From Pseudomonadota bacterium (GTDB taxonomy: Bacteria > Pseudomonadota > Alphaproteobacteria > Acetobacterales > Acetobacteraceae): DNA of 59,847 nucleotides. The stretch spans positions 85,288 to 145,134 of the forward strand of contig JAJXWD010000002.1 in NCBI GenBank assembly GCA_021781835.1, in the 5' to 3' direction. Position numbers and translations under genes: made by a program. This document shows, piece after piece, positions 11,985 through 52,920 of this stretch. Each line of letters starts with the position of its first letter. The first letter of the stretch is position 1. The notes under the pieces are model-generated. The model had not been told where the DNA came from, did not search any database, and saw only the letters and a list, made by a program, of their open reading frames with translations.

Positions 11985-11987
11985 GGC

Positions 11988-36670: not shown

Positions 36671-36676
36671 CTTACC

Positions 36677-38421: not shown

Positions 38422-38424
38422 TGG

Positions 38425-38463
38425 CGCTCCATCTCAGGGACGCGGCGCCATCGCGGCGCTGCA
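38425..38463 (-). repeat. Two-hairpin ribosome-site element, copy E (before baseplate J)
   Basis: The most diverged copy of a five-copy family. On the mRNA strand a stem GCGCC/GGCGC with a 5-base loop is followed by GTCCCTGAGATGGAGCG, which carries the conserved GATGGAG and the GGAG ribosome site. It fills the whole gap between the gp46 stop and the J start. Confidence 0.7.
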
Positions 38464-38919
38464 TCAGGTTAAAACGCCGCTCCAGGCCCACTGATATTGG
38501 AAATTCGCCAAGGTCCCGTCGGGTTTGGTGACGGTCACGGCAATCCCCAGGCGGCCCGGAGCGGGATAGGACGTCTGCACGTCCACTTGCTTGGCTACAC
38601 CGTCGCTTACAAGGGGAGCAAGCGCCTCCTGACAAATGTCCCGGGCATCGCGCAGCAGCTGGGTGACGTCAGAGATCGACCGGCGCGCGAGCGTCCATAG
38701 ACGCGACCCGATGGGCAGAGCCTCGTAAGTATCGGCCCACCAGCCACGGTGATCTGTGGTTCCGTCCGGGGGGGCGGTATCAGCCGGCAAAACCCGATCG
38801 GTGAACAGGCAGATGAGCACCGAGGTCTCAAGGTCGCCGCCGGTGGCTACCTGCCCGCTCTCGACGGTCCAGTCGCCACGAAAATTGATCGGATCCCACG
38901 TAATAGTAATATCTGGCAT
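38464..38919 (-). CDS. Mu gp46-like baseplate protein
   Basis: The 151-residue product has the gp46 family pattern: DLETSVLICLFTDRVLPAD, then DHRGWWADTYEALPIGSRLW and LTPLVSDGVAKQ-like ALAPLVSDGVAKQVDVQ. It is a small wedge component of the baseplate. It overlaps the spike gene by one base. Confidence 0.9.
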   Translation of the reverse strand: MPDITITWDPINFRGDWTVESGQVATGGDLETSVLICLFTDRVLPADTAPPDGTTDHRGWWADTYEALPIGSRLWTLARRSISDVTQLLRDARDICQEALAPLVSDGVAKQVDVQTSYPAPGRLGIAVTVTKPDGTLANFQYQWAWSGVLT

Positions 38920-39431
38920 TATCCTGTTGGTGTCCCTGTTGTGCCGCCTTGAGGATCCGCATGAATATGCTGACTCACCGAATGTGTGCTTTCAGCATAG
39001 ACTTCGCCGGTAGCTGTAAGTTTTCCGTTTAGCACCACATCCCCATTTATGGTGATCGGAGAGCCGTTCCCGTTGATCATAATCCCCGATGAGGCAAGCA
39101 CGATCGAGCGTCCCTGATTGTCGAAGATCGCCGTCTCACCGGGCTGGAGCGTCAGACGATACCGGCGGTCGTTGGACGCGACCGCGACGCCCTTAGTTTT
39201 GTCACCGTCCAAGAATGCCACGGCATAATCGCAGCCGGGCAGCGTGGCGCTGGCAAATCCGTAGAGTTGCATCGATGGGACACCATCTCGGATCTCGGGG
39301 CCGCCATTGGCTGTGCCGGGAAATTTGACCTGCACGCTGGCCGTCGGGCCTTCCTGGCTGGAGGTGGTCGCGCGCCCGACGCTGAACACCGATTTCAGCC
39401 GGTTCGAAAGCGCGCGCAGCTGCTCCCACAT
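38919..39431 (-). CDS. Baseplate spike protein V (Mu gp45 family)
   Basis: This 170-residue protein is the membrane-piercing spike. It has the OB-fold N-terminus with TASVQVKFPGTANGGPEIRD and VPSMQLYGFASATLPGCDYA. A repeat-rich beta-helix stalk (SIVLASSGIMINGNGSPITI) leads to a tip with HIHADPQGG, the HxH iron-binding motif known from gpV-type spikes. Confidence 0.9.
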   Translation of the reverse strand: MWEQLRALSNRLKSVFSVGRATTSSQEGPTASVQVKFPGTANGGPEIRDGVPSMQLYGFASATLPGCDYAVAFLDGDKTKGVAVASNDRRYRLTLQPGETAIFDNQGRSIVLASSGIMINGNGSPITINGDVVLNGKLTATGEVYAESTHSVSQHIHADPQGGTTGTPTG

Positions 39432-40597
39432 TATTGCGCCCCCCCGACCGGGTTTTGGGCCTGGTAAACGTCGGAGGCATACGGCTGGAGGATAATCGGC
39501 TCGGGAAAATATGCCTGGGGGGGCATCAGCACCACATCGGCATGGGTGCCCGCTTCATCGCGCCGATAAGTGACCTCACCGATCAACCAGTTGGCATCCG
39601 TCAACTTCAAGGAGGGCAGATTGATCGGGGCCAGGGTGTTCTTGGTCCAGAGCGTGCCCGCGCTGTCAAACCACCCGTCGCAGGTCACGCGCACGGCCTG
39701 GCTACGGCCAATGCGCCGCGCGACCTCCCAGGCGCAGCGCTGCTTGGCTACGGAGTATTCGCTGCCCCCCTGTTCGGAGACAAAAATCATCGGCCGATAA
39801 CGAGGCACGCCGGGGTCGACGGACAAGGCGCCCTGCACCAAGTCCGCGCTCACGGCGCCGGCATCAGCAGGATCGCCCGGCTCCGTGTAAAGGGTGGCTG
39901 TGGTGAGCAGCACTGCCTCGACGGTTGAGAACCGATCATCCATCGAATAGGTGGTCTGCGCCTGCTCGACATTCACGCCCTGCGAAAATCCGCTGGCCAT
40001 CTCCAGCGATCCCGCCCGGGTGAGGATAAGATCACCAGCGTGGTCATCGTAGGCGAGGAGGGCAGCATAGCGCGCCACGCGTTCGATGATCTCGAACGCA
40101 GTCTCGGTGAGGATCACGTCGAATTGCGGCACCAGCGTGCTGCCGATGTCGCCGATCGCATAGACGTTGATACCGAAAGGCGCGGCGAGCTTCTGCGCCA
40201 ATGATAAAGGTGTGCTGTTGTTAAGCTGGAATGTCGAGAATTCCGCCGAGCAATCCACGAGATCTGCGCATTTCGACCGGCCGATTACCGTCAGGGTGTG
40301 ATTATTGCCGGAGATCATATATTTGACCCGGTCGACGTACCCGCTCAGCACCGTCTGGGTGCCGATCAGGATGATGCACTCCATCCCCGGCTCGATTTTG
40401 GCGACGCCAGCCGATTCGGGATAGCTGTCCGTGCCCTCGAGCTCAAAATCCGCCGGGCAGCGCTCAATGCCGGTGGTGATGCGCACGCGGCTCCAGCCGG
40501 TATAGCCCGACCAGTCAGCGGTCGGCTCGCCGCCAGGCCGCACGGCAATCGTGACGGTGCTGTCGGGGGTGACGGGCTGTAGAGTGGAGCCGCTCAT
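39431..40597 (-). CDS. Tail hub protein (Mu gp44/gpP, P2 gpD-like)
   Basis: This 388-residue protein forms the hub that holds the spike. Family features are the N-terminal TADWSGYTGWSRVRITTGIE, GYVDRVKYMISGNNHTLTVI, GRSKCADLVDCSA and WEVARRIGRSQAVRVTCDGW. It overlaps both neighbours by one to four bases. Confidence 0.9.
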   Translation of the reverse strand: MSGSTLQPVTPDSTVTIAVRPGGEPTADWSGYTGWSRVRITTGIERCPADFELEGTDSYPESAGVAKIEPGMECIILIGTQTVLSGYVDRVKYMISGNNHTLTVIGRSKCADLVDCSAEFSTFQLNNSTPLSLAQKLAAPFGINVYAIGDIGSTLVPQFDVILTETAFEIIERVARYAALLAYDDHAGDLILTRAGSLEMASGFSQGVNVEQAQTTYSMDDRFSTVEAVLLTTATLYTEPGDPADAGAVSADLVQGALSVDPGVPRYRPMIFVSEQGGSEYSVAKQRCAWEVARRIGRSQAVRVTCDGWFDSAGTLWTKNTLAPINLPSLKLTDANWLIGEVTYRRDEAGTHADVVLMPPQAYFPEPIILQPYASDVYQAQNPVGGAQ

Positions 40598-42039
40598 GCC
40601 GAAAGGGCCTCAAAGCTGGTGGGCATAAAAGCCGGGTGCGCAGGGTTTGCGCGGGCTATGAGCTGATCTGAGCGCGTGGCGTCCTGATAGAGGAGATATG
40701 CGACCGCCAGCGCCGGCAGGGGCGCCCCCGTGGTCACGGTCTCGATCGAGGGCAACGCGGCGCCACGCACGATCAGGTCTGTGGCGACCGCCGCGCGCAA
40801 AGCTCGGAAAGCCGAATAGGTGCCATCTTGGCCCGCATCGGCAGCGACGGTAATCTCGGCATCGAAGAGCGGGATGACGGCATCCAACAGCGCCATGGCT
40901 TCCGTCGACGAGGTCGGCGTGTACGCCTCACACGCGCCCGCCAGCGCCGCGAGCGCGCTCCGGCGCAGCAGCTGGGCCGTCGCATCCTGGGCATTGGCCC
41001 CGGCCTGCCCGAGCGTCGAGGTGGCGGCCGGAATGGTGGGGGAAAACGCCTGCAGCGCCGTCAACATGCGCACCTGGTCGGCGGGGCTTTGGGCGATGGC
41101 CGCGACGGCATCGAGCAGTGTCTGAGCCTCTCCGGCGAAGCTGCTGGCCGTGGCCACCGTCATGCTCTCACCGGCGGCAGAAAGCCCGGAGGCGGCCGCT
41201 AAAACGGCCGTCCGCGCCGTGATTTGTGCGGCGAGCAGGGAGGAGACCGTGGCCGTATTAGGCGCCGGCGCCGCCGGGCTGCCCACGCCAAAATACCGCC
41301 CGAACCCCCCCACCAGCCCGGTGATGGAATTATAGGCCGCCGAGGCATCACCGATCACGCTGCTCACGACGCCCTCAAACTCGGTGACCGTGGAGGTCAC
41401 TTTCGCGAGGGCCGATTCACCATAGGCCAGCGGTCCAGCGATGTATGTTTGGAAATCCGCCTCCACCGCCGACACGGCGCTGGTGATGGCGCTGAGGATG
41501 CCCTTCTTGGTCTGAGCCACAGCCGTCGGCATGATGCTGCCCGCCGTCTCCAGCGCCGTGAACTGCAGCTCTACCACCCGCCCGCGCTCGGCGCGCTCGA
41601 CCATGGCGAAATCGACGATCGAGACTTTTTTCGAGCCCAGTGAGGGATGGACCAAAATCCCCGGCCCGGCCGTCTCTACCGCGGCCTTAAGCTTGTCGCG
41701 CTGGCTGTAAACATCATCGCCCACGATGAAGCCGGAAAAGCTGTAGGCGCGCGTTCCGAGGCCGATATCTTCGACCCAGATTTCATCTCGGTAGGGGTAG
41801 ATATGTGGCGCAGTGCGGCGTCCGGTTTTATGGGTCGCCTGTGTCACCGCGAACGGCACGCCACGAAAGCTCGCCGCCTGCAACGACGCCGCCCAGATGC
41901 CGAGTCCCTGCTTGGCCCCGTAGCCGCCCGTGGCGAGAGATTCGATGCTCGATGCAGCATTTCCGAGAGACGATGCAGCGCCGGAAAGAGCGGAAACCGT
42001 GCTGCCGACGGCCCCCACTGCATTCAGGAGGCCGCTCAT
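40594..42039 (-). CDS. DNA circularisation N-terminal domain protein (Mu gp43-like)
   Basis: The 481-residue product has the DNA_circ_N domain (residues about 50-140: LQAASFRGVPFAVTQATHKT, APHIYPYRDEIWVEDIGLGT, then GDDVYSQRDKLKAAVETAGP). In Mu this protein sits in the tail end and its name comes from genome circularisation in early work. The rest is an alanine-rich helical region. It overlaps the tape measure gene by four bases. Confidence 0.88.
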   Translation of the reverse strand: MSGLLNAVGAVGSTVSALSGAASSLGNAASSIESLATGGYGAKQGLGIWAASLQAASFRGVPFAVTQATHKTGRRTAPHIYPYRDEIWVEDIGLGTRAYSFSGFIVGDDVYSQRDKLKAAVETAGPGILVHPSLGSKKVSIVDFAMVERAERGRVVELQFTALETAGSIMPTAVAQTKKGILSAITSAVSAVEADFQTYIAGPLAYGESALAKVTSTVTEFEGVVSSVIGDASAAYNSITGLVGGFGRYFGVGSPAAPAPNTATVSSLLAAQITARTAVLAAASGLSAAGESMTVATASSFAGEAQTLLDAVAAIAQSPADQVRMLTALQAFSPTIPAATSTLGQAGANAQDATAQLLRRSALAALAGACEAYTPTSSTEAMALLDAVIPLFDAEITVAADAGQDGTYSAFRALRAAVATDLIVRGAALPSIETVTTGAPLPALAVAYLLYQDATRSDQLIARANPAHPAFMPTSFEALSA

Positions 42040-43853
42040 ATCCCACCCCCGGCCATGGCCCGGCTGATCTTCACGGCCCCCTGAGAGACGGATGGCGAGC
42101 TGGCACTGACCACCACCGATGAGCCGGGCGGCGCGTTGTTGTGGTTCACATCCACGGTGATCTGCACGGCCTGGGCGGCGGCGTTGCTGGCAATCGTCGG
42201 ATCGAGCGTGGCGCCCGTCTCTTCCTGGGCCATGGCCGACAGCACCTTGCGAAGGTTGCTCGCGTTGGTGAGGTCGAGCGGAGCGTCGGCGCCAATCCCG
42301 GTCATGCCGGTCACGGCCTTAAGATAGGCTGGATCGTCATTGCCATCGCTTGCCGGCGCCCAGCCCCATTTGGGATCGGTGATCAGCGCGCGCAGGGTGT
42401 GCAGACCGTGCACGGTGTTATCACGCACAAGCTGCTGGGCGCCGGCGGTGGCGCCGGCCTGCATGGTGGCATATTTACCGAATGGCCCGTCTGCTCCCAC
42501 GGTCCCCGCCATGCCGGCGGTTTTGAGGTTCAGAGGGTTATTGTCGCGCAGGCCGCGCGCGGTGCCGAACGCGGGCGGCGCATTTGGGCCCGTGATGCCG
42601 TACCGGCCGTACCGGCCGAGCGTGCCCTGATTTACCGGGTCGGGGTCCGGCGTATTCATCATGTAGAGCATGCCACCCGCCACAAGGCCCCCGCCGAGCA
42701 TTGTCGCGGCGCCTGCCGCCGTTCCTACCAAACCGGCCGCCCCGGCGCCGGTCGAAATGCCGGTCGCCGCCATGAGCGACACCACCCGCACGAGCGCCGC
42801 CGTGACGGTCAGGATCGGTGCCATCATTGAGGCGAGCCACGCCGCCCCCATGAAAATGGCCAGATCCCGGGCGGCCTTCTGCCAGCCGCCGAATTCGTGC
42901 ACGGCACTTTGCACTTCCGGCGCGACCTTCTCCACCCATCCCACCAGACTTTTGACCGCCCCCACAATGCCGGTGGCGATCCAGGCGCGGTTGCGGGCGA
43001 TCCAATTCGCCATGTTGGTGAGCAGCGGGCCGAGATAGGGCGCGAGCTTCTCAGCGACGGAATAGCCGAGCCCCTCCACGGCCAGCGTCAGGCTGGTCTG
43101 GGCGATGCGGAGATTGTTCGCCGCCGTGACGCCTGCGGCGTTCACCACGCCATATTTTTTGGCCTCGGCCTCATATTCGGCCATCCCCTTCGATCCCAGG
43201 CGCAGGAACGGCAGCATATCTTCCGCCGCGCCCCCGAAAAGAGCAGTGGCTACCGCGGCCTGGCCGAAGGGATTCTGAATCGCGGCAATTTTATCTGCCA
43301 ATTGCGGCATCGCCGCATTTAAATTGTGCGACATTTTAACGATGTCGCTCATTTTGAAGCCAAGGTACTGAAATGTTGCAACAGTTTGCGGCGATCTTCC
43401 GCCGATGGCATTCCATAAGTTTTGGCCCAGCGTCTGCATGCCCTGGGCCATCGCGGCGCCGGACGTGCCAGCCAGACGGGCGGAATTTTGCCATGTCTGG
43501 AGCGCCGAGGCAGACATGCCGATGCGCTGGCCGGTAAAGCTGAGTTGCGATCCGAAGCCGGCGAATTTGGTAGTGAGCGCCACAAGCCCGGCAATCGATG
43601 CCGCGCTAGTGATAGCGCTCAAAGGCTCCACGATACGCGCCACGTTGTGGAAGACCTTGCCGGAGGCAGCGCCAAGATTGCGAAATCCTTCAGACATGCG
43701 CGTGAGGCCCGATGCATCCGATAAGCGCTTGAACGACTTCTGCACGCGCTCAACGGGCGCGGCCATTGCGGCAATCCGTTTGTTGATCGCCTCGAGGTGC
43801 TCGCTGACCTGGTCAACGGCAGTGATCGTAAGGCTGAGTTTACCGCCGGCCAT
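42036..43853 (-). CDS. Tail tape measure protein with lytic P5-like domain
   Basis: The 605-residue product has the classic long hydrophobic-helical region of tape measures (about 60-400) with several transmembrane-like segments. Near the C-terminus (about 433-550) lies a domain starting RGLRDNNPLNLK, with GPFGKYATMQAGATAGAQ, ITDPKWGWAPASDGNDDPAY and YLKAVTGMTGIG. This is the phage muramidase-like domain of the P5/RNNNPGN type, for local wall lysis during injection. The ATG at 43853 (MAGGKLSLTITAVDQ) is the start; the frame upstream lies inside the chaperone gene. It is short for a contractile tail, indicating a short tail tube. Confidence 0.88.
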   Translation of the reverse strand: MAGGKLSLTITAVDQVSEHLEAINKRIAAMAAPVERVQKSFKRLSDASGLTRMSEGFRNLGAASGKVFHNVARIVEPLSAITSAASIAGLVALTTKFAGFGSQLSFTGQRIGMSASALQTWQNSARLAGTSGAAMAQGMQTLGQNLWNAIGGRSPQTVATFQYLGFKMSDIVKMSHNLNAAMPQLADKIAAIQNPFGQAAVATALFGGAAEDMLPFLRLGSKGMAEYEAEAKKYGVVNAAGVTAANNLRIAQTSLTLAVEGLGYSVAEKLAPYLGPLLTNMANWIARNRAWIATGIVGAVKSLVGWVEKVAPEVQSAVHEFGGWQKAARDLAIFMGAAWLASMMAPILTVTAALVRVVSLMAATGISTGAGAAGLVGTAAGAATMLGGGLVAGGMLYMMNTPDPDPVNQGTLGRYGRYGITGPNAPPAFGTARGLRDNNPLNLKTAGMAGTVGADGPFGKYATMQAGATAGAQQLVRDNTVHGLHTLRALITDPKWGWAPASDGNDDPAYLKAVTGMTGIGADAPLDLTNASNLRKVLSAMAQEETGATLDPTIASNAAAQAVQITVDVNHNNAPPGSSVVVSASSPSVSQGAVKISRAMAGGGI

Positions 43854-44025
43854 TATTACCTGCCTTTGCCAAGGCCGCCGCATGGTCGGCCCATTCGTAC
43901 AATTCTTCGACCGTCAGATCCTCGACCTCACTTTTCGACCACCCGAAAAAGCGCGCCACCGAGGCCATCAGGCGTCTAAAGTCGCCTCCTCTTTCAGAGG
44001 CTTCGGCATAAAACCCAGCAGCCAT
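43840..44025 (-). CDS. GpE-like tail chaperone extension, read by frameshift or coupling
   Basis: This 61-codon frame overlaps the 100-residue chaperone in the -1 frame. Its C-terminal 42 residues (ASVARFFGWSKSEVEDLTVE, then ELYEWADHAA) match the GpE family of P2. Two routes exist. A slip at GGGTTTT (44016-44010) would fuse 87 residues of the upstream protein to 56 residues of this one, giving 143. Alternatively the ATG at 43968 overlaps the upstream stop (TGATG) and gives the 42-residue GpE alone. Confidence 0.85.
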   Translation of the reverse strand: MAAGFYAEASERGGDFRRLMASVARFFGWSKSEVEDLTVEELYEWADHAAALAKAGNNGRR

Positions 44026-44270
44026 TCGGCGGCCTCGGCGGCGATATCGATATCGATCTGCTCGACCGCCGGAATCGGCATGCCGGTCACGATCGACACC
44101 AGCGCGATCTGCATGGCCGTGGCGCTGTCCGCGGTGCCCTTGAAATGGGTCTGCGCCCGCTTGAGCTCGCCGATCTTCGGGACGCGGAGATCCAGCGTGT
44201 AATAATCCTTGCCCGCCAGGGAGATCACGGCGGGCAGCTCAACAGTGCGCGTGCGCTCACGGATCGTCAT
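43968..44270 (-). CDS. Tail assembly chaperone (Mu gp41-like)
   Basis: The 100-residue product coats the tape measure before tube assembly. It begins TIRERTRTVELPAVISLAGK and continues DYYTLDLRVPKIGELKRAQT, the pattern of Mu gp41-type chaperones. It overlaps the tube gene by four bases and contains the slippery site at residues G86-F87. Confidence 0.88.
   Translation of the reverse strand: MTIRERTRTVELPAVISLAGKDYYTLDLRVPKIGELKRAQTHFKGTADSATAMQIALVSIVTGMPIPAVEQIDIDIAAEAAEWLLGFMPKPLKEEATLDA
44010..44016 (-). promoter_or_regulatory. -1 frameshift slippery heptamer GGGTTTT
   Basis: On the mRNA strand the sequence G GGT TTT lies in the zero frame of the upstream chaperone as X XXY YYZ. After a one-base back slip the next codon is TAT and the frame continues into the GpE-like extension without a stop. 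The heptamer type and its place before the upstream stop match the tail-chaperone frameshift sites of lambda and P2. Confidence 0.75.
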
Positions 44271-44641
44271 GCCGTGAGCTCCTCAACGGAGACGCCCTCG
44301 AATTTGACGCTGAACGTCGCCTCCTGGGTCTTCACCGCCTCCACCTCGGTGCACCACATGCCGTCGCCGTAGACGCGCTTGCCATTGGCGAGCGTGAGCA
44401 CCAAAGAAGAACTCGTCATGGCGTTGAAGCTGGCGACGGTGAGAGACCCGGCGTCGCGGATGGTGGCCGAGATATAGCCGGTCACCGGCATCTCGGAGTA
44501 CCCTTGCACGCCACTCTGCCCGGTCAGCGATTCCCGCTTTACGCTGTTCGCAAAATATTCGGCGTCTGAGACGACATCGTAATTCGAGCCGTCGATGCTG
44601 AGGTAGGCAATGCCTGCCCGCCTGTTTTGTGTGCCACTCAT
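44267..44641 (-). CDS. Phage tail tube protein (Mu gpM family)
   Basis: The 124-residue protein forms the inner tail tube. The family pattern is visible: RAGIAYLSIDGSNYDVVSDA, KRESLTGQSGVQGYSEMPVT, GYISATIRDAGSLTVASF and ATFSVKFEGVSVEEL. Copy D of the ribosome-site element lies in the gap before its ATG, with GGAG placed 8 bases upstream. Confidence 0.93.
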   Translation of the reverse strand: MSGTQNRRAGIAYLSIDGSNYDVVSDAEYFANSVKRESLTGQSGVQGYSEMPVTGYISATIRDAGSLTVASFNAMTSSSLVLTLANGKRVYGDGMWCTEVEAVKTQEATFSVKFEGVSVEELTA

Positions 44642-44648
44642 CTTGTCA

Positions 44649-44688
44649 CTCCATCAAAGGGATGGCCGGCGCCTCACGGCGCTGGCTG
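44649..44688 (-). repeat. Two-hairpin ribosome-site element, copy D (before tube gene)
   Basis: On the mRNA strand a stem GCGCC/GGCGC with loop GTGA is followed by CCATC-CCTTT-GATGG, then AG completing the GGAG ribosome site before the ATG at 44641. The loop of the second hairpin is larger than in copies A-C while both arms are kept. Confidence 0.8.
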
Positions 44689-44695
44689 GCGTGGT

Positions 44696-46219
44696 TTAGG
44701 GTTTGGTGAACTGCACCAGCATGGCGATCTGGCGCAGCTGGTTGGCGACCTGGATGGGCAGCAAGAGCTTCACGAGGCCGTTGCCCGCATTCTGCGCCTG
44801 GGCCTGCTGGGCGAATTGCTGGGCGTTCTGGGCCAGGCCCGCCGTGCAATAGGTCTTGTAGCGCCCCACCACCGACGCCAGGACCGTCTGCGCGGTGACC
44901 ATGGCCGAGCCGTAGGGCACCGGCGTGCCGTCGGCCACCAGGATCACGCGCGGATAGTTGGTGGCCAAGAAGCTGCGCAGGTCACGGAGCAGATACTGAA
45001 GGGTGTAGAGCGTCTCGGTGTCGAGATACGAGTCATCCGCCGCCCCCGCTGCGTTTTTCTGGTAGGTGGTGCACATGCGCTCGATCTGCACAGTGCCACT
45101 ATCCGTCACCAGGAAGGTGGCGACCCCATCATAGAGCAGCGTATTGCGCTCGGAGCGCGTGAAGCGGCTGGCCAGCGGGGGTGCATAGACGGTGGAGAGC
45201 GCGAGATATTGCAGCGGCACGGCCGGATTGGCGCGGATCGAGACCATGCAGGTGGCCGCTACATCAGCAGCCCACACATAATCGGGGCTCGGGCTGTCAT
45301 AAAAGCCCATGATCTGGGTGTGCTGGTCATTCAGAGCGTTGCCAAAGGTCGCGAGTGTGCCAAGCGCGCCGCGCGAGGCGCCCCAAGCCCCACCGAAAAG
45401 CTCCTGCATCCATGACCAGCGCCCGGTGGCGTCGTTGAGGAAGGCCGTCAGGGCCGCCAGGGTGGTGGTATCCGTGAAGCCGGTGATGATCGCGTCGAAC
45501 GTCTGATCGCCCGAGAGATTGGCCAAGGCCGTGGTGATCACGGGATTGAGCGTGCCGCCGGCCAAAAGGGCGCCATTACCGTCCGCCGTGCCGCTGATCG
45601 TCAGCCCAACCCCGGCGGGCAGCAGCTCGCCCGCGGCGGCGCCGAGATAATTGACCCGCACATCAATGGCGTTGCCGACCAGGCCGGCATGCACGGCGGT
45701 GAGCGTCACCACACCGGTAGTGCCGCTGGCGGCCGCCGTCACCGGCATCGTCGGAATCGCATTGATGGCCGCCGCAATGGCTGCGCCGATCTGCACCACG
45801 GTCATCCCGGCGGTGATCGCCACCGTCACGCGCGGATTGATCGCGCTCGCGCCGATGTAAAAAAAGATCGTCCCGGCCGCCGTCGCGGGCCCGGTGGGCG
45901 TGATCGTGGCGCTGGCTTTGGTGTCGGTGGGGTCGGACACGCCCACGCACCAGACCTCGCCGAAGGTGTCGGCATTCCGATAGGCCTGGAGCATCTGCGC
46001 CAGCTGCGAATTGATGCCGTACTTTGTCTGCGCGTCGCCAAGGCCACCCGAAAGCGTTGCCACGTTGGGCGCGGCCGTCCCGGCTGTGGTCATCTGCCCG
46101 ATGATCAGAGCGCGCAAATTCTGCTGGCCGGTATTGGCCTTGCTTGCGTTCAGTTCGGTGAAAAAGCCCGGCGTGCGGTTGCTGCTGGGGTAATACTGGA
46201 AATTGATGCTGCCGCTCAT
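44696..46219 (-). CDS. Contractile tail sheath protein (Mu gpL family)
   Basis: The 507-residue sheath subunit starts with INFQYYPSSNRTPGFFTEL, then NLRALIIGQMTTAGTAAPN, both typical of Mu-type sheaths. An inserted domain (about 110-245) resembles bacterial Ig-like folds. The C-terminal part reads RMCTTYQKNAAGAADDSYLD, TETLYTLQYLLRDLRSFLAT. Copy C of the ribosome-site element precedes the ATG. Confidence 0.94.
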   Translation of the reverse strand: MSGSINFQYYPSSNRTPGFFTELNASKANTGQQNLRALIIGQMTTAGTAAPNVATLSGGLGDAQTKYGINSQLAQMLQAYRNADTFGEVWCVGVSDPTDTKASATITPTGPATAAGTIFFYIGASAINPRVTVAITAGMTVVQIGAAIAAAINAIPTMPVTAAASGTTGVVTLTAVHAGLVGNAIDVRVNYLGAAAGELLPAGVGLTISGTADGNGALLAGGTLNPVITTALANLSGDQTFDAIITGFTDTTTLAALTAFLNDATGRWSWMQELFGGAWGASRGALGTLATFGNALNDQHTQIMGFYDSPSPDYVWAADVAATCMVSIRANPAVPLQYLALSTVYAPPLASRFTRSERNTLLYDGVATFLVTDSGTVQIERMCTTYQKNAAGAADDSYLDTETLYTLQYLLRDLRSFLATNYPRVILVADGTPVPYGSAMVTAQTVLASVVGRYKTYCTAGLAQNAQQFAQQAQAQNAGNGLVKLLLPIQVANQLRQIAMLVQFTKP

Positions 46220-46225
46220 GGCGTC

Positions 46226-46261
46226 TCTCCATCGATGGGACCGGGCGCCTCACGGCGCTCG
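46226..46261 (-). repeat. Two-hairpin ribosome-site element, copy C (before sheath gene)
   Basis: On the mRNA strand the stem GCGCC/GGCGC with loop GTGA is followed by GGTCCCATCGATGGAGAG, with the GGAGAG ribosome site 5 bases before the ATG at 46219. The stem differs from copies A and B at a base pair (C-G in place of T-A), which keeps the pairing. Confidence 0.82.
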
Positions 46262-46269
46262 AGAAAAAA

Positions 46270-46470: not shown

Positions 46471-46479
46471 GGGGCCTCC

Positions 46480-47043
46480 TCAGGGCTGGACCGACGGGAC
46501 GCCGCCGGTCTGGGCATTCACGCCCGCGTAAATCGTCGGAGCGCCCGACGGCTGAGACACCTCCATCCCGAAATTCGCGACGGGAGTGCCAAGCGCGGCA
46601 AGCGGGCCGAATTCTTCGTAATATTCGCACTCCAGCTTGAGCAACGCTTCCGAAATTGGCGTGTTGCCGCTCGACGATGAGCGCACTTCCGTTTCGATGG
46701 CGGGAAACTGCTGGACCATTTGCTGAACGGGCGAGCCGGCGCTGATAATGGCTTGCTCGATCTGGTAGAGCAGAGTGGCCATGGTGGTGGCCGCCGTAGC
46801 GCTATCCACTGCCGAGACGCGCACAACGATCAGGATGCCCGACACCGTCGTGAATTGTGGCAGCCCCCGCACAAGGCTTTCTTTCCGGTCATACGGGCAC
46901 TTGACCAGGATGGCCGGCAGCTGAGGCTCCGTCAGGGGCCAATCGCGGTCTGCGTACACGCTGCCGCCTGCGGACGTGGCCGCCGCCAGGAGGGTGGAGA
47001 CCACCGCGTCAGCGATCTGCTGTCGATAAAGAGAGCCGCTCAT
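46480..47043 (-). CDS. Putative tail terminator (gpU/gp37-like)
   Basis: The 187-residue product starts YRQQIADAVVSTLLAAATSA and has LPAILVKCPYDRKESLVRGL, a pattern of tail-completion proteins that cap the tube. The position between the head-tail joining protein and DUF2635-sheath fits the Mu gp37 slot. The assignment to a named family is moderate. Confidence 0.65.
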   Translation of the reverse strand: MSGSLYRQQIADAVVSTLLAAATSAGGSVYADRDWPLTEPQLPAILVKCPYDRKESLVRGLPQFTTVSGILIVVRVSAVDSATAATTMATLLYQIEQAIISAGSPVQQMVQQFPAIETEVRSSSSGNTPISEALLKLECEYYEEFGPLAALGTPVANFGMEVSQPSGAPTIYAGVNAQTGGVPSVQP

Positions 47044-47378
47044 TTTGCGTTCAACAACAGCTTGGCCCAGCCGTGCCCATCAGGCCGCACCTCCATCACG
47101 CTATAAGCTGCGCCCGTGGCCAGCGTCAGCGTGTCGCCTTGCAGCGGCGCAGCTAAAAATTGTGAGAGCTGTACGCCCAGCACCGGGCGCGAGCTGGTGA
47201 TATTGGCGGGGCTCCCGAGCTGCTCGAGGCTGCCCCCTATGGGGTCGAGCGAGAGATATTCGCTGTCAAAAACCCCAGTGATTGCCTCGACTGTTCCCGC
47301 CTGGTGGGTATAGGTGACGCTCTGGCCGAACGTAGCGGCCAGAGGTCCAATCACCAGACCGTCCCAGTCGACGGTCAT
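47040..47378 (-). CDS. Head-tail joining protein (gpFII-like)
   Basis: The 112-residue beta-rich product contains FDSEYLSLDPIGGSLEQLGS and TSSRPVLGVQLSQFLAAPLQ, GDTLTLATGAAYSVMEVRPD, the pattern of the lambda FII/ATP-binding-sugar-transporter-like joining family. It overlaps both neighbours (ATGA and TGATG), linking head and tail modules. Confidence 0.75.
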   Translation of the reverse strand: MTVDWDGLVIGPLAATFGQSVTYTHQAGTVEAITGVFDSEYLSLDPIGGSLEQLGSPANITSSRPVLGVQLSQFLAAPLQGDTLTLATGAAYSVMEVRPDGHGWAKLLLNAK

Positions 47379-47617
47379 CAGGCGCGCACTTCGGTGCCGC
47401 CCACGCGGCGCACTTCAGGCTGCGCACTCGCATCTGCCGGCTCGAGCGCGCCGAGTTCGCGCAGGCGCGCGACCTCGTCCTCGGGCAGCTCCACGATTTC
47501 CCCGGCCTGCGCGACCTTGGAGACATTCTTGGAGATGGCGCCTTCCTTGGTTTTCTCGACCAAGCGGGTCTGAATGCTGCGCCCGCGCGCCACGCGGGCC
47601 TTAACCAGGGCCGCCAT
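47378..47617 (-). CDS. Small phage protein at the capsid-joiner boundary
   Basis: The 79-residue basic then acidic product (ARVARGRSIQTRLVEKTKEG, AQAGEIVELPEDEVARLREL) occupies the place of lambda gpFI. No family is certain. It overlaps the capsid stop and the joiner start, so it is translated with both. Confidence 0.6.
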   Translation of the reverse strand: MAALVKARVARGRSIQTRLVEKTKEGAISKNVSKVAQAGEIVELPEDEVARLRELGALEPADASAQPEVRRVGGTEVRA

Positions 47618-48693
47618 CAGGCGACGGTCCCGGCGCAGACGGTGGCGGCCAAGCAGGCATTTACCCGGCTCGGGATCACCAGCGGCGCGCTCTGCATCAT
47701 CAGGAAGCGCTGGGCGGGGTCATTCTCCACCCAGGTCTTCGGCGCGTAGGGGAGCGCCGCGTAGTTGAAAGCGGGGTCCAGGATCTGGGCGAAGGCGCGA
47801 GTGCCCATCATATCCGGGCCCGACATGATGACTGTGCCGTCCGCGATCATGCGCTTCTCGACGTTGTTCTCGTCGACGTACCAGTCGTTGTAGAGCCAGA
47901 GATCGTACTGGCCCCAGCGACCTTTATAGACCGCGCCGCGGGCGATCTGCGAGCCGGGGTTTACGCTGTTCCCATAATCGCCCAGCTTGGGATAATAAAC
48001 CGCCCCCTGCACGCCTTCGGCGCCGAGGAATTTCTGCCAGGGCGTCGGGGTGAACACGATATCCGTGACCGTGGCGCCCGACGATTTGAGGATCTGGGTC
48101 TGCCACGCCTCAATGTCCGCCACCGGCACCGGGTCGCGGCCGTCGGAATTGAAGTTGGCCGCCACGCCCCACTGGGCAAGCCCCGAGAGGGCCACAGTCA
48201 GCGAAGAGTCGCGGCCGTAGTCGATCAGGGTGGCAGGATAGCCCTCGCCCGACACGGTGATGGTACCGGTCAGCAGCGCCTGTGCCGCCATCCACTCGAG
48301 GCGCCGGTTGAGCATGTCGATCTGGTCCGTCATCTCGAATTCGATGTTGGCCATCTCGCGCTCGGCGCCGGTCATATCGCCGCCGATGCGCTCACCGATC
48401 ATGCGCCGCACCGGCTTGCGGAGGTCGGGCGCGCGCTTGTCCTTGATGTAGGGCGGCTTGAATTCATTGGTCTGGTAGCGGCGCTGCTCGACGAGCTTAC
48501 CCTCCATCAGCGGGCTGACAAACGGGCTCATACGGCGCTTGCCGATATCGATATCGATGGAGACGAATTCGGAATCCGCCACCACGATGTTCGGGAAGAA
48601 CTTGTCCAGCAGGAACGTCTGGGCAAGCTTCAGGTTGGGAACCACCTGAATCAGGGTGTTGGTGTCGTAGAGAAAGCTCGCATTGCCAGCCAT
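47617..48693 (-). CDS. Major capsid protein E (lambda gpE family)
   Basis: The 358-residue coat subunit has the gpE-type pattern: NASFLYDTNTLIQVVPNLK, FLLDKFFPNIVVADSEFVSI, GKRRMSPFVSPLMEGKLVEQ and a late PKTWVENDPAQRFLMMQSAP. The ATG at 48693 is chosen because GGAG from the hairpin element lies 9 bases before it. An ATG at 48708 is part of the hairpin itself and would add five residues. Confidence 0.95.
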   Translation of the reverse strand: MAGNASFLYDTNTLIQVVPNLKLAQTFLLDKFFPNIVVADSEFVSIDIDIGKRRMSPFVSPLMEGKLVEQRRYQTNEFKPPYIKDKRAPDLRKPVRRMIGERIGGDMTGAEREMANIEFEMTDQIDMLNRRLEWMAAQALLTGTITVSGEGYPATLIDYGRDSSLTVALSGLAQWGVAANFNSDGRDPVPVADIEAWQTQILKSSGATVTDIVFTPTPWQKFLGAEGVQGAVYYPKLGDYGNSVNPGSQIARGAVYKGRWGQYDLWLYNDWYVDENNVEKRMIADGTVIMSGPDMMGTRAFAQILDPAFNYAALPYAPKTWVENDPAQRFLMMQSAPLVIPSRVNACLAATVCAGTVA

Positions 48694-48699
48694 AAGCTG

Positions 48700-48740
48700 A
48701 GGCTCCATCGATGGGACCCGGCGTCATCACGACGCTGGTC
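48700..48740 (-). repeat. Two-hairpin ribosome-site element, copy B (before capsid gene)
   Basis: A 41-bp unit identical over its whole length to copy A. On the mRNA strand: stem GCGTC/GACGC with a 5-base loop, then GGGTCCCATCGATGGAGCCT, which holds the palindrome CCATCGATGG and the GGAG ribosome site of the capsid gene. Confidence 0.9.
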
Positions 48741-48772
48741 AAAACGCCTTGCCCAAGGGCGCAAAGGGCGAA

Positions 48773-48792
48773 CGCGGCGCCGAAGCGCCGCG
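48773..48792 (-). other. UUCG-loop hairpin between decoration and capsid genes
   Basis: On the mRNA strand CGCGGCGC-TTCG-GCGCCGCG forms an 8-bp perfect stem with a C(UUCG)G tetraloop, an extra-stable form. It lies 3 bases after the decoration stop codon. No U-run follows, so it likely stabilises or processes the mRNA in front of the capsid gene. Confidence 0.65.
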
Positions 48793-48795
48793 CGA

Positions 48796-49497
48796 TTAGA
48801 TAACGGCCGGGGTCGCCGTGCCGGGATCGGCGGCAGTGACGGCGCCTTTCAGAAACAGCCCATTCGGGATCGCGGTCGCGATCAATTCCGGGGTCCAGCT
48901 GCTGTCATAGCTGACGGCATTGATGTTGAACTCGCCCATGAAATAGGCCCCGGCGGGGACATTGCCGGCGCTCGGGTCGGCATAATCGGCGAGAATGGCA
49001 ACAGGGTTTTGACTGCCATCGGAGGCAGTTTTGACCGAGAGCTTGAGCGTGCCGATGGCGTTGACCACCTGCACGTCAAAGCTGTCGGCCGCCGAAAAAG
49101 CAGTCCCGCCGGCGGTGATGGTGAACCCGAGGCCTTCCTGGGAATAGGCGGTGCCTGTGGTCGCATCCGCAAGGACCGTTCCCTCGGGGTCGGTGACCGA
49201 CCAATCGGTCGCGGACTTGGCGGTGAGCGTGTACGTGCCGACCAACACGGCGGTGCCGAGGGTGATCGAGCCGATGGTGCCATTGCCCACATTGGTCGCG
49301 CCGATGGTCACGATATCAGAATAGGACGAGGCACGGCCAAGCACGGAACCGCGCGGGAGCGCCACTGACCCGGACAGGATGATCGGCTGAGAGACAACCT
49401 TTAGGTTGCCCGCGATCAGCTGATCGGGATTATAGATTTCCGAATAGACGGCGGGCTGCTGGGGATTATCGCCAACGGTGCTGGTGATGAGGGTCAT
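48796..49497 (-). CDS. Head decoration protein (lambda gpD family) with extra domain
   Basis: The 233-residue product begins TLITSTVGDNPQQPAVYSEI, then GSVALPRGSVLGR, and ends with NINAVSYDSSWTPELIATAI, the gpD core. Lambda gpD has about 110 residues. Here an extra beta-rich domain (about 60-145: GTAVLVGTYTLTAKSATDWS, FTITAGGTAFSAADSFDVQV) is inserted, as in larger decoration proteins, and may be displayed on the capsid surface. Confidence 0.85.
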   Translation of the reverse strand: MTLITSTVGDNPQQPAVYSEIYNPDQLIAGNLKVVSQPIILSGSVALPRGSVLGRASSYSDIVTIGATNVGNGTIGSITLGTAVLVGTYTLTAKSATDWSVTDPEGTVLADATTGTAYSQEGLGFTITAGGTAFSAADSFDVQVVNAIGTLKLSVKTASDGSQNPVAILADYADPSAGNVPAGAYFMGEFNINAVSYDSSWTPELIATAIPNGLFLKGAVTAADPGTATPAVI

Positions 49498-49509
49498 GCG
49501 TCAGGTCCT

Positions 49510-50079
49510 TCAGATTTCGCCGCGGCGCTTACGGCCGGCCGCGACAATCGCGGCGGCAGTGGCGGCATGGGGGTCGACGGAAGTCGCGGCCGGAGCGCCC
49601 GGGCCGGGATTGGTGGGGGCCTCTCGGCTCATGCGCGCGGCCAGGGCCTGGCGCCGCTGCGGGGCGGCCGCGCCGGCTTTAAGGAGGCGAATGGCGGCGC
49701 TCCTGGAAAGGCCCTGGTTGAACGCCAGCTCAGCGGCAAGGGCGGGATTGGCCGCGGCTTCCGGCGTCGCAAAGATGGCGGCGCAGCGCGCACGCTCGCG
49801 CAGACGGGCGCCGCGCACCGGCGACGCCTTGGCCATCTCGCCATCATCACTCTCGTCGTCGCCTTCCTCATCACCGTCGGCTTCGGCACGCTTACGCGCC
49901 TCTTCCTTTTCCTTCTCGTCGTCGTCGAGGGCCTTCATGCGCGCCTCATACTCGTCGTCGGTCTCGCCCTCTTTGCGCTCGCGCTCGTCGGGCTCATCCC
50001 CTTCGGCTTTCGCGGCGGACGCGCCCAACCCGATGAGATGGGCGAAAGTTTTTTTGAACCCGGCAGATTTACCAGCCAC
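49510..50079 (-). CDS. Putative capsid scaffold protein
   Basis: The 189-residue product starts with GTG at 50079 behind AGGAG. It is highly charged (EGETDDEYEARMKALDDDEK, EEARKRAEADGDEEGDDESD) with an alanine-rich C-terminus, typical of scaffolds. It lies between the S49 protease and gpD, the Nu3 position of lambda. No enzyme motif is present. Confidence 0.7.
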   Translation of the reverse strand: MAGKSAGFKKTFAHLIGLGASAAKAEGDEPDERERKEGETDDEYEARMKALDDDEKEKEEARKRAEADGDEEGDDESDDGEMAKASPVRGARLRERARCAAIFATPEAAANPALAAELAFNQGLSRSAAIRLLKAGAAAPQRRQALAARMSREAPTNPGPGAPAATSVDPHAATAAAIVAAGRKRRGEI

Positions 50080-50096
50080 GATAGAAAGCTCCTGTT

Positions 50097-50882
50097 TTAG
50101 CCCAGCGTTTTAAGCAGGGCGGAAAAAGCCGCGTCGGGCGCGGCAACCTCGTCGCACAAGCCGGCGGCGACCGCTCCGGCCCCCATGAATGTGCCGGCCT
50201 GCATGTCCCGTATCGCTTGCGCGTCGAGGCCGCGATTGCGCGCGACCGTCGCTACGAACAATTCCCCCATCTCATCCACGTCAGCCCTGAAGCAAGCGAG
50301 TGCATCCTCAGAAAGCGGCTTCTCAGATGCACCGTCCGTTTTACGATCACCGTATTGGATGAACGTGACTTTCACCCCCGCCTTGTCGAGCGCCTGGCTG
50401 ATATCGACGTGCCCGGCGACTACGCCGATGCTGCCAGCACCTCCGGTGCGCGGGATGAGAATCCGATCTGCCGCGCTGGCCAAAGCGTAGGTGGCCGAAT
50501 AGGCGCTTTCGCTGAGGATCGCCCAGATCGGCTTTTTCCCGCGCGCAGCGAAGATGTGGTCGACAAGGTCGAAACACCCTTCGACCGTCCCGCCCGGGCC
50601 GTTTACGTCCAGCGCAATGGCCCGCACATCATCGGCCTCGAGCGCCGCGTCGAAGCCCTGCCGGATCCAGCTGTATTCCGTTCCGTCGGCCCACCAGGGA
50701 AGGTCATTGGCGAGCACCCCGCGCACCGGCAAGATGGCCACGCCTTTATGCAGCCCATATTGCGGCTGTGGCCGGACATAGTCGTCATAATCCGACCAGG
50801 CCGTGATGGTGGCCGCCAGGCGCTCGATTTCCAGTCGATGCATGGCAAGCGGGCGCGTGAAAAAGCGGGGGTCGATCTTCAT
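50097..50882 (-). CDS. S49-family prohead protease (lambda gpC-like)
   Basis: The 261-residue serine protease matures the prohead. The core shows RAIALDVNGPGGTVEGCFDL, the nucleophile in SESAYSATYALASAADRI, and the lysine region FIQYGDRKTDGASEKPLS. It overlaps the portal gene by four bases (ATGA) and lies before the scaffold, which it probably cuts. Confidence 0.92.
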   Translation of the reverse strand: MKIDPRFFTRPLAMHRLEIERLAATITAWSDYDDYVRPQPQYGLHKGVAILPVRGVLANDLPWWADGTEYSWIRQGFDAALEADDVRAIALDVNGPGGTVEGCFDLVDHIFAARGKKPIWAILSESAYSATYALASAADRILIPRTGGAGSIGVVAGHVDISQALDKAGVKVTFIQYGDRKTDGASEKPLSEDALACFRADVDEMGELFVATVARNRGLDAQAIRDMQAGTFMGAGAVAAGLCDEVAAPDAAFSALLKTLG

Positions 50883-52591
50883 TCGCCGGCTCCTGGCGGC
50901 TTGGGGGTAATGGGCTTGTCGCCCGCATCGCGGCCCGCTTGGCCGCCATTGTCGACGCTGGCCATGGCCGCCACGATGGGAAGAGGCGGCAAACCGACCT
51001 GCTCGAATTTCCGCCGCTCGAGCGCCAGCTGGTCGACGATCTCTTCCCAGTCCTCGCCGGTGTTTTCGCCCACCTCCATTTCGAGAGACGAAAGCCCGGC
51101 ATTCATGCCGATGATCGCGCCCTGGCGCTCGGCCACCGGATCGACCCAGCCGCGCCCCGGCCGCAGCCAGCGGCAGCGCGCATAGGCCGTGCGGAACTCC
51201 TCGAACGATGGCGCGCCGGCGGGCAGCGGAATATCCTCAATGTCCATGACCTCCTCGAGGAAGGCCGCGCGCACCGGCATGGCAAAGCCGCTCTCGAACC
51301 CCGCCGCGCGCCGATTGAACGTCTTCAGCACCTCATTGGTCGCGCCGCGGAAAGACGAGTAATTCGTGCGGCTGAAATCGCCCGAAAGCTGCTCGTAGGT
51401 CACGCCCAGGCCTGAGGCGATGTGGCGCAGCACTGCCACCGAAAACGGCTCGTAATTCGCCGCCGGGCGGCTGGCATTGACCGTGCCGATTTCCTCGCCC
51501 GGGGCCAGCGTCGTGACCCGCGCGCCGCCGATATCCAGCCGCTTGCCGGTCCAGAATTCATTGCGCATGTCCTGGTAAGGCCCGAGGCTTCCCGGCATGG
51601 GGCCGGGATTGACCGCCTCTTCGATCATGGCGGGATCGAACGGGCTTTTCATATAGGCGGCGAACACGGCATTGATGATTGCCGCCTCGAGCTCGACGGA
51701 ATCGTATTTGGTCAGCATTTTCATCCGCTGCATGACCGACGTCAGGATGCCGACCGCCCCGTGGTGCTGAGACGCACGGTGGTGGTCGTAATCGTGCACC
51801 ACCACCGGGCGCCCCCAGGTGGTCTGACGGGGCAGATAATCCCATTGCTGGGCCTTGGCCGCCGAGAACCAATCGCCCACATGGGCCCGACGGATCCAGT
51901 ACCCCTTCGGCGCGCCATACTGATCGACCTCAACGCCGCCGCGCATCGAGTTGGCGTCGAATTGCAGCTGAGGATTGCTAAGGCGGTCGGGGTCGATCAG
52001 CTGCAGCGCCGTCGCATAGCGGGCGCGTCCAGGGCCGACCACATCGTCGCGCCAGGCCATCACGCCGAGCGCGTCTCCGTCGATGAGCTTGTGCCGCATG
52101 GCCACCCAGAAAAGCTGGGGAAGCGTCAGGCAGTGCATGGCGTCGCAGTAATGGCCGACTTTATCATCTGCCCAGCTGCGCCAGCATGCATCCACGACGC
52201 GGCCGAATTCGTCGGCCCATACGGCATCGAAGCCTTTGATGCCGGTATAATAGGCCAGCGCCCGGTAATCGGGCTTTGAGATCGCGCGGTAATCCGCCCC
52301 GATGACATTGTCGAGCACGCGCGTGATGCCGCCGCGCGCCCAGCCGTCATTGCGCTCAAGGTCGCGGGCGCGCGAGACAATGCGGTCGCGCCAAAATTGA
52401 CTCGTTTCGCCATCAGGAGACCAGAGGAAAGGATACCACCCCTCCATCTGCTCCGAGTAATTGTCCGCCGCGTCGAAAGGCGTGTTCATGGTGCCGTTGA
52501 GCGCCATGGGCGTGGGCCCTTGGCGGCCGCCTCCAACCGGCGTTTTTGGGCGGGGGAGGGGAATGCCGTCGGCGCCGAGGATCTCTACCAT
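50879..52591 (-). CDS. Portal protein (lambda gpB family)
   Basis: The 570-residue portal has the gpB-type pattern: NDGWARGGITRVLDNVIGAD near residue 70, WRSWADDKVGHYCDAMHCLT, then DYDHHRASQHHGAVGILTSV, and LSGDFSRTNYSSFRGATNEV, a strongly conserved portal stretch. The ATG at 52591 overlaps the gpW stop (TGATG). A GTG at 52630 is possible but would overlap gpW by 40 bases. Confidence 0.93.
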   Translation of the reverse strand: MVEILGADGIPLPRPKTPVGGGRQGPTPMALNGTMNTPFDAADNYSEQMEGWYPFLWSPDGETSQFWRDRIVSRARDLERNDGWARGGITRVLDNVIGADYRAISKPDYRALAYYTGIKGFDAVWADEFGRVVDACWRSWADDKVGHYCDAMHCLTLPQLFWVAMRHKLIDGDALGVMAWRDDVVGPGRARYATALQLIDPDRLSNPQLQFDANSMRGGVEVDQYGAPKGYWIRRAHVGDWFSAAKAQQWDYLPRQTTWGRPVVVHDYDHHRASQHHGAVGILTSVMQRMKMLTKYDSVELEAAIINAVFAAYMKSPFDPAMIEEAVNPGPMPGSLGPYQDMRNEFWTGKRLDIGGARVTTLAPGEEIGTVNASRPAANYEPFSVAVLRHIASGLGVTYEQLSGDFSRTNYSSFRGATNEVLKTFNRRAAGFESGFAMPVRAAFLEEVMDIEDIPLPAGAPSFEEFRTAYARCRWLRPGRGWVDPVAERQGAIIGMNAGLSSLEMEVGENTGEDWEEIVDQLALERRKFEQVGLPPLPIVAAMASVDNGGQAGRDAGDKPITPKPPGAGE

Positions 52592-52872
52592 CAGCGGAAC
52601 CGGAAATTCAGCGGGCGCCGGGGATGGCACACAATGCCAAGCTGCGCCTGCAGCTGTTTGATGAGCATCACAAGGCCCGACGCGCTTGCGGGCGAATAGG
52701 TGACCGATTTTGTGCCGTCCCCCTGGGTATAGGAGAGCGTGACCGCCTTGGCGCCTGTCTGTAGCTCGATCAACGCCGTCTGGGCATTCGCCAGGGCAGT
52801 CTGGAGCTGAGCCGTGGTCATGCCCGCGAAAACAGACGTCGACGGATTATAACTGCGGCCCGCGCCGGACAT
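52591..52872 (-). CDS. Head-tail connector protein (gpW-like)
   Basis: The 93-residue product carries MTTAQLQTALANAQTALIEL and the beta hairpin VTLSYTQGDGTKSVTYSPAS, the layout of lambda gpW. The ATG at 52872 (MSGAGRSYNP) has GGAG six bases upstream, inside copy A of the two-hairpin element. It sits between TerL and portal, the W position. Confidence 0.85.
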   Translation of the reverse strand: MSGAGRSYNPSTSVFAGMTTAQLQTALANAQTALIELQTGAKAVTLSYTQGDGTKSVTYSPASASGLVMLIKQLQAQLGIVCHPRRPLNFRFR

Positions 52873-52875
52873 GGT

Positions 52876-52916
52876 AGGCTCCATCGATGGGACCCGGCGT
52901 CATCACGACGCTGGTC
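52876..52916 (-). repeat. Two-hairpin ribosome-site element, copy A (before gpW gene)
   Basis: This 41-bp copy is identical to copy B, more than 4 kb away. It fills the gap between the TerL stop at 52921 and the gpW start. It consists of the stem GCGTC/GACGC and the palindrome CCATCGATGG followed by AG, giving the ribosome site. Confidence 0.9.
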
Positions 52917-52920
52917 GAAG

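Follow-up and report, generated by a model that had tools for sequence, protein, structure and literature searches.

A putative family of structured leader RNAs before virion genes, represented by five copies in an Acetobacteraceae prophage

Why should one short element stand immediately before five different structural genes of a single prophage? The question is posed by a 59,847-nt stretch of DNA from a bacterium of the family Acetobacteraceae (GenBank assembly GCA_021781835.1, contig JAJXWD010000002.1, positions 85,288 to 145,134 of the forward strand), which was analyzed as a whole and is called the window here. An original prediction had placed five copies (A to E) of a two-hairpin element carrying the ribosome site in the gaps before the genes for gpW, major capsid protein, tail sheath, tail tube and baseplate J, and had read the element as a shared translational control element, a recombination linker, or both. 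Direct checking of the sequence bore out all five copies at their positions on the minus strand, which is the mRNA strand of the late genes; Pfam agreed for all five downstream genes, and copies A and B were indeed identical over 41 nt. Stem 1, together with its T-A to C-G pair change between copies, is as had been described. On balance, we favor the reading that these copies represent a new family of leader RNAs whose target is translation initiation, with a common factor, perhaps of the host, as the probable mediator, and that the leader probably helps to set the timing or strength of virion protein production. A shared structured leader is supported because pairing is kept, because the copies are placed before starts, and because the genes downstream are unrelated. 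The five copies, the genes that they precede and one additional hairpin are as follows.

52876..52916, minus strand: copy A, leader of the gpW (head-tail connector) gene, with the outer stem present
52591..52884, minus strand: gpW-like head-tail connector gene (PF02831, phrog_75), preceded by copy A
48745..48762, minus strand: hairpin P1, GCGCCCTTGGGCAAGGCG (core CTTRGGCAA), then TTTT; of the five copies, only copy B has P1 upstream
48700..48740, minus strand: copy B, leader of the major capsid gene
47617..48708, minus strand: major capsid gene (PF03864, phrog_29), preceded by copy B
46225..46266, minus strand: copy C, leader of the tail sheath gene; GCGCC-GTGA-GGCGC, then TCCC-ATC-GATGGAG
44696..46219, minus strand: tail sheath gene (PF04984, phrog_165), preceded by copy C
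44647..44690, minus strand: copy D, leader of the tail tube gene; GCC-A-GCGCC-GTGA-GGCGC-C-GGC, then TCCC-TTT-GATGGAG
44267..44641, minus strand: tail tube gene (PF10618, phrog_185), preceded by copy D
38425..38467, minus strand: copy E, leader of the baseplate J gene; GC-A-GCGCC-GCGAT-GGCGC-C-GC, then TCCC-TGA-GATGGAG
37270..38421, minus strand: baseplate J gene (PF04865, phrog_6), preceded by copy E

Copy A is made up of the inner stem GCGTC-GTGAT-GACGC followed by TCCC-ATC-GATGGAG, and its start codon is the ATG at 52872 or, in frame, the one at 52884; the corresponding positions for copy B are 48693 and, in frame, 48708. Common to all five window copies is the sequence CCC-N3-GATGGAG. Beyond stem 1, 2-4 further pairs form an outer stem on the other side of an A-C mismatch, a feature that the original prediction had overlooked. 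A 33-nt pattern taken from the copies matched A and B (expectation 0.00 from 100 shuffles), while the core CCATCGATGGAG occurs three times in the 2.9-Mb genome, every time inside the prophage. A covariance model, R1, returned five matches in the same genome, all in the prophage and with E <= 9.3e-12; the scores of these copies (51.9-56.9 bits) are partly circular, since R1 was built partly from them. By the same model, the other late genes of the prophage lack the element, as had been claimed. The accompanying statement that these genes start by overlap holds for some of them; several own separate ribosome sites.

Pairing was assessed in three alignments that extend beyond the window. The first, A1, is the source of R1 and comprises 30 copies aligned with MAFFT (five from the window, two from the viral locus L014, two from the prophage G071 and 21 others); these were hand-picked among candidates that had passed a filter for hairpins with 5 or more pairs, with L196, two copies of L197, L221, the duplicate L259 and rows not before a start left out by hand. 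The second, A2, holds 25 copies outside the R1 building set, also aligned with MAFFT but found with R1. The third, A4, holds the 72 copies that pass E 1e-4 in 54 sources chosen as positive, in an alignment fitted to the model. In A1, 82.5% of cells were paired, versus 65.9% after shuffling and at most 53.0% in slid versions. The corresponding figures for A2 were 87.9% versus 77.7%, with a covariation of 0.290 versus 0.134 (0 of 500 shuffles as high), and those for A4 were 93.4% versus 73.5%, with at most 56.4% in slid versions. Cells changed on both sides numbered 100 in A4 versus 32.5 in shuffled alignments, and G-U pairs occurred at four of the seven pair positions, which fits RNA. The stem pairing appears, from these comparisons, to have been kept through two-sided changes across diverged copies. 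A simple duplication within one prophage was rejected, given the number of copies and sources that the covariance model recovered.

A further check, blind to the hairpin, used sites of the linear pattern in 120 viral loci, among the matches listed, split solely by the gene that follows. Where an open reading frame (ORF) of at least 100 aa follows (37 sites), a GNRA-type loop lay at the expected place in 27 and five of five pairs were formed in 17; where no ORF of 40 aa follows (78 sites), the counts were 5 and 6. This check ties the loop and the full stems to gene starts, not covariation by itself.

These data bear on the possibility that the element works as DNA, being an operator, a promoter part or a recombination linker that is palindromic by chance. 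The identity of A and B over 41 nt suggests recent copying within the prophage, a short shared sequence before swapped modules fits linkers, and the case for RNA is weakened because the aligned copies had been selected partly for pairing. Nevertheless, pairs are replaced by other pairs, including G-U, the distance to the start codon is short and fixed on the same strand, the ribosome site belongs to the element, and its strands stay matched across an inserted stem that is described below. We consider a DNA-level element very improbable. As the sole reading, the recombination linker of the original prediction is disfavored because pairing persists while the sequence drifts.

Read 5′ to 3′, the leader comprises the optional hairpin P1, a hairpin P2, a short linker, U-CCC, usually 3 nt, GA-N-GGA(G) and the start codon. 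In P2, the inner stem usually has five pairs and is separated by a mostly A-C mismatch from an outer stem of 2-3 pairs; the loop reads GNGA, or GNGA plus one nucleotide. Within A4, loop identity is high at G (69/72), the third-position G (68/72) and A (64/72), and so is conservation of the linear motif (CC in all 72 copies, the third C in 71, U in 66 and GGA in 70). Inner pair 3 is G-C in 72/72 copies. Inner pair 4 is U-A in 38, C-G in 29, A-U in 2, U-G in 2 and other in 1, and the outer pair adjoining the mismatch is C-G in 42, G-C in 25, U-G in 2, U-A in 1 and other in 2. The ribosome site is usually GATGGAG, not AAGGAG, with N being T in 57 of 70 copies and A in 7 of 70. The ATG of GATGGAG was rejected as a general start codon because the base is not T in 13/70 copies and the frame misfits copies C, D and E; it is possibly the real start in copies A and B and in some relatives. 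Position and orientation are consistent with a leader, as an ORF of 40 aa or more begins with an ATG 4-14 nt past GGA in 64/72 copies versus 248/1139 random GGAG sites, and in 48 of the 64 copies with an ORF the start codon is 7-9 nt past GGA. Tandem leaders before a single capsid or major tail gene were seen in L352, L357 (about 163 nt apart) and L271 (44 nt apart); in each pair, the upstream copy is not followed by an ATG at the usual spacing.

The second hairpin of the original prediction (CCATC/GATGG) fared differently. Only copy D is able to form its five pairs: the 5-nt arms of copies A, B and C directly adjoin each other, which leaves room for at most 3 pairs, whereas the left arm is absent from copy E. 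Since RNAalifold, too, retains CC/GG only, the five-pair hairpin 2 was rejected. What stands of the proposed translational control element is a shared structured element at the ribosome site, found also beyond this phage. The U and A flanking CC/GG are nearly invariant, and we infer that U-CC may pair with GG-A in a small stem, P3, that would hold part of the Shine-Dalgarno sequence. Patterns that describe P2 only gave 121 distinct matches in the viral and genome loci examined, some of them already in A4, and 79 of these carry CCC...GANGGA plus an ORF. The gap between the two strands is 2-7 nt in 69 of the 79 and 16-29 nt in the other ten, eight of which show a stem of 4-8 pairs within the gap. 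The mean for the ten long-gap copies is 4.8 pairs, versus 3.2 after shuffling and 4.5 in the highest of 500 shuffles. The capsid leader of G732 (L328) likewise has an insertion of about 40 nt between the strands. A stem inserted between strands that remain matched fits strands that meet in space.

What kinds of gene does the leader serve? The head proteins encoded downstream fall, by PHROG and Pfam, into several families (phrog 10, 617, 29, 212, 264, 283, 334, 1005 and 1328), and the major tail proteins match phrog 1407, 158, 807 and 290, the last of which is labeled "minor tail" although some named relatives are annotated as tail tube or major tail protein. Further genes served encode sheath, tube, gpW, portal, head-tail adaptor, scaffold, tail chaperone and a tape-measure-like protein, and some downstream proteins have no PHROG match (e.g., in L230 and L200). 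By single linkage (BLASTP 1e-4), the proteins downstream of the 72 copies form 39 groups, at least four of which are singletons only because a proper ORF had not been taken at that site and some of which share a PHROG. In the set found through P2, 54 of the 79 downstream proteins match a classed one (capsid 25, major tail 19, sheath 3, head 3 and four others), and the other 25 have no assignment.

The optional hairpin P1, recognized by the core CTTRGGCAA upstream of P2, is distributed unevenly among these genes. It is present in 26 of 42 copies at capsid or major-tail genes, in none of 15 at other virion genes of assigned function and in 4 of 15 before genes of unknown or unassigned function; these counts were tallied by hand, and Fisher values (2.8e-5 for capsid/major-tail versus other virion genes; 0.03 versus unknown-function genes) are nominal since the copies are related. 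The arms of P1 form a mean of 4.37 consecutive pairs within their own sequence versus 3.12 when swapped between sequences (0/1000 swaps as high). One exact P1 sequence had 86 distinct matches, 45 of them with the linear motif 30-85 nt downstream. Elsewhere (e.g., L521, L524 and L538), P1 occurs by itself, with an ordinary ribosome site or start following within a few nucleotides, which makes it a separate module. The element does not fit an intrinsic terminator, a G+C hairpin with a T run behind it, as P2 is followed by U-CCC and the ribosome site, and P1 is followed by TTTT solely in the window and L014 among 30 segments (9 nt shown). A separate observation concerns L180, where a group I intron (RF00028, 87.6 bits) at 12026-12280 overlaps the end of the major head protein ORF at 11325-12086; this capsid gene is probably interrupted by the intron.

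Could the leader simply boost translation without any factor acting in trans, P2 (and P1) shielding the 5′ side and keeping the ribosome site open or the mRNA stable? Its place before abundant virion proteins, the tight spacing to the start and the addition of P1 mainly at capsid and major tail genes would all be expected of such a booster. On the other hand, loop identity and the U-CCC...GA-N-GGA motif are conserved beyond the needs of stability alone, the site is usually GATGGAG rather than AAGGAG, folding energies are ordinary, and the leader also precedes connector, portal, baseplate and small chromosomal genes. We regard this explanation as unlikely.

The family extends well beyond the window. 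Viral contigs scanned for the stem end plus the linear motif yielded at least 120 loci, among them contigs with a hairpin of the same build ahead of an ATG. R1, run on 246 sources (100 + 66 + 80), found more copies, some in contigs that the pattern had found yet missed by the pattern itself. Gene-blind R1 surveys, in which about 15-16 candidates were scored per genome so that the counts are lower bounds, were positive for at least 16 of 394 genomes of the window's family, at least 5 of 385 of its class and at least 1 of 398 in a draw from the phylum (each including the window's own genome), and for at least 4 of 39 genomes of a second family. A search of 397 family genomes with the pattern CGCC...GATGGAG was dropped as too loose in G+C-rich DNA. 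Several copies per phage are found elsewhere as well, with two or three in L163, L191, L200, L207, L209, L211, L244 and L269 compared with five here. Two Rhizobium phages without the element (L314, at 14986 and 18875; L315, at 14986 and 18925) show a different near-repeat, CACCACA...GGAGAC, which stands once ahead of the major capsid gene and once ahead of the major tail gene and is perhaps an analogous shared leader.

Some copies appear to lie outside phage surroundings. In G747, G068 and G199, three genomes from two families, each leader stands ahead of one of the homologous genes for a protein of 47-48 aa, which are located as follows.

L319, 1537-1677: gene for the 47-48 aa protein
L359, 1355-1495, minus strand: gene for the 47-48 aa protein
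L361, 1352-1495, minus strand: gene for the 47-48 aa protein

In alignment A3, these proteins show 49 and 57% identity to the first member and a consensus like FRxWIT.RDGR.(I/L)YAR..GL.AF. They had no Pfam or NCBIfam match, and their profile had no match in a set of 172 genomes that had not been shown to include a known carrier. Genes for QueG, queuine tRNA-ribosyltransferase and an LppC-like protein lie near the G199 copy, and genes for OmpA and a glycosyltransferase lie near the G068 copy; in G670, a 61-aa ORF follows the copy and a histidine kinase gene lies in the vicinity. No phage Pfam family was detected in the scanned neighbors of L327 (six proteins), L329 (four), L367 (four) and L368 (six). 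Judged by these neighbors, the small-gene loci look chromosomal rather than prophage-derived.

Coat proteins of RNA phages and antitermination proteins bind their own RNA hairpins, and each phage might similarly encode an RNA-binding protein that binds P2 of all its leaders. Such a regulator would account for the multiple copies per phage, and the GNRA-like loop with its five-pair stem is reminiscent of boxB-type hairpins. However, phages whose morphogenesis genes are unrelated share this loop and motif, as do the chromosomal loci whose scanned neighbors lack phage Pfam families, and we judge a phage-encoded regulator to be improbable. A host reader of P2, whether a protein or a feature of the ribosome, seems more likely than a phage one because the leader serves non-homologous genes of unrelated phages together with a few chromosomal genes for small proteins.

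Several results weigh against a dedicated leader RNA. The covariation figures lean towards structure, as A1 was filtered for hairpins and A2 and A4 were found by the pairing-scoring R1; in our judgment, this selection explains little, since copies of at least 45 bits would pass despite several broken pairs. One slid version of A2 also pairs 82.4% of cells, with a small covariation (0.061). When arms were swapped in the hairpin-blind check, pairing dropped alike at gene starts (4.38 to 3.12) and gene-less sites (3.60 to 2.04), an effect of setting the register to give the best stem. Energetically, the five window leaders and two relatives fold no better than shuffles (z +0.48 to -1.97), the predicted fold of copy E is not P2, and P1 is missing from the minimum-energy fold in all three P1-bearing leaders folded. 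Among the 121 matches to P2-only patterns, 35 have no linear motif within the set distance and 7 have the motif without an ORF. P3 is nearly invariant, and covariation is unable to test it.

The distribution among close relatives points in the same direction. Of 80 viral loci with a related capsid protein that were compared (the capsid leader being inspected in 65), only L014, the closest relative with 78% capsid identity, has convincing R1 copies, which lie before gpW and before the capsid gene. Relatives without the element (among L015-L081) mostly show, by eye, a terminator-like hairpin with a T run plus a plain GGAG before the capsid gene. One of nine family prophages inspected, a set that leaves out a tenth strong match (G190), has the element; this is G071, again before gpW and capsid. 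R1 found no element in the 18 of 25 loci from named genomes on which it was run, nor any convincing match in 13 public phage-record regions that are nearest relatives (10 named phages and 3 uncultured Manatee Spring records; top score 15.2 bits). A 60-nt composite had no blastn match in 50,697 phage records. The original prediction had looked to related phages for paired changes and for copies in their leaders: the former were seen, whereas the element is missing from most relatives that share the capsid gene. For this reason, the element is a module gained or lost independently of the capsid gene and not inherited with it, and its absence from most relatives weighs against these genes needing it.

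How might such a leader work? We propose that each copy would be a cis-acting structured leader RNA of one cistron, controlling translation initiation there. The U-CCC and GGA strands may close P3, which would hold part of the ribosome site, P2 may be the recognition site of one factor common to all copies, and that factor, on binding P2, could open P3 or protect the message, with the outcome that virion proteins would be made together and late. P1 may add a second, separable layer for capsid and major tail genes. A broader and distinctly more tentative version, which we think possible rather than probable, holds that one leader class forms a common late-translation regulon for tailed phages of alphaproteobacteria that borrows a host control system. 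Phages of differing tail types, judged by gene content, would each have placed the same host-readable leader before non-homologous genes, the borrowed system would also govern small chromosomal genes, and, if this is true, a single host factor or signal would govern the levels of virion proteins in every one of these phages.

Late phage genes are usually seen as set by promoters, gene order and individual ribosome sites. One RNA leader common to capsid, tail, sheath and connector genes that are not homologous and belong to unrelated phages would, by comparison, be a portable translational control part; it could flag virion genes that lack recognizable sequence, it points to a reader, possibly a host factor, and it makes the setting of virion protein ratios and timing directly testable in these phages. 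Individual features have parallels in known systems. The T7 gene 10 leader likewise places a hairpin and a ribosome site ahead of the major capsid gene; to our knowledge, it serves one gene, with no set of copies across gene families and no U-CCC...GANGGA motif. The RNA-phage coat-protein operator, which overlaps the ribosome site, and lambdoid boxB resemble the present leader in their short stems and small purine loops and have one protein reader, but they occur at few sites per genome, whereas the present leader precedes many non-homologous genes and carries a linear motif outside the hairpin. CsrA/RsmA targets present GGA in hairpin loops that are bound by CsrA; in the leader, A-N-GGA hardly varies among copies but is located in the 3′ part of the motif and not in the P2 loop. 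Pseudomonas phage 8P (L336, 9910-10122) has a gene annotated as a CsrA-like regulator within its structural gene cluster. Comparative-genomics surveys have, as here, predicted structured RNAs near phage genes, among them the candidate phage RNAs Mu-gpT-DE and Proteo-phage-1.

The original prediction knew of no described family for the element, and this holds for Rfam 15 and the literature searched. Rfam 15 gave no match to the element, whether the query was window positions 36000-55000 (E up to 5), a set of 13 positive loci (gathering threshold) or one of 15 positive loci (E up to 1), and no description of this leader was found in the literature searched, most subscription papers being outside the search. 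Our findings thus suggest a new family of a known general kind, the cis-acting leader RNA, with an unusual reach. The nearest described kind is the SAS/ESAS elements of cluster K mycobacteriophages, in which the 13-bp GGGATAGGAGCCC stands before the starts of non-structural genes, about half of the copies have an imperfect inverted repeat upstream, a role in translation initiation has been proposed and the 17-bp repeats differ between subclusters (PMC3203893). Both are short repeated elements right before start codons with the GGAG ribosome site inside, but SAS/ESAS belong to one phage cluster, lie in the half that contains the non-structural genes, and have another sequence (PMC3203893). The present leader differs from SAS/ESAS in its motif, U-CCC-N3-GA-N-GGAG, in standing mainly ahead of virion genes, and these of unrelated phages, in its short hairpin with a conserved loop, and in serving chromosomal genes too.

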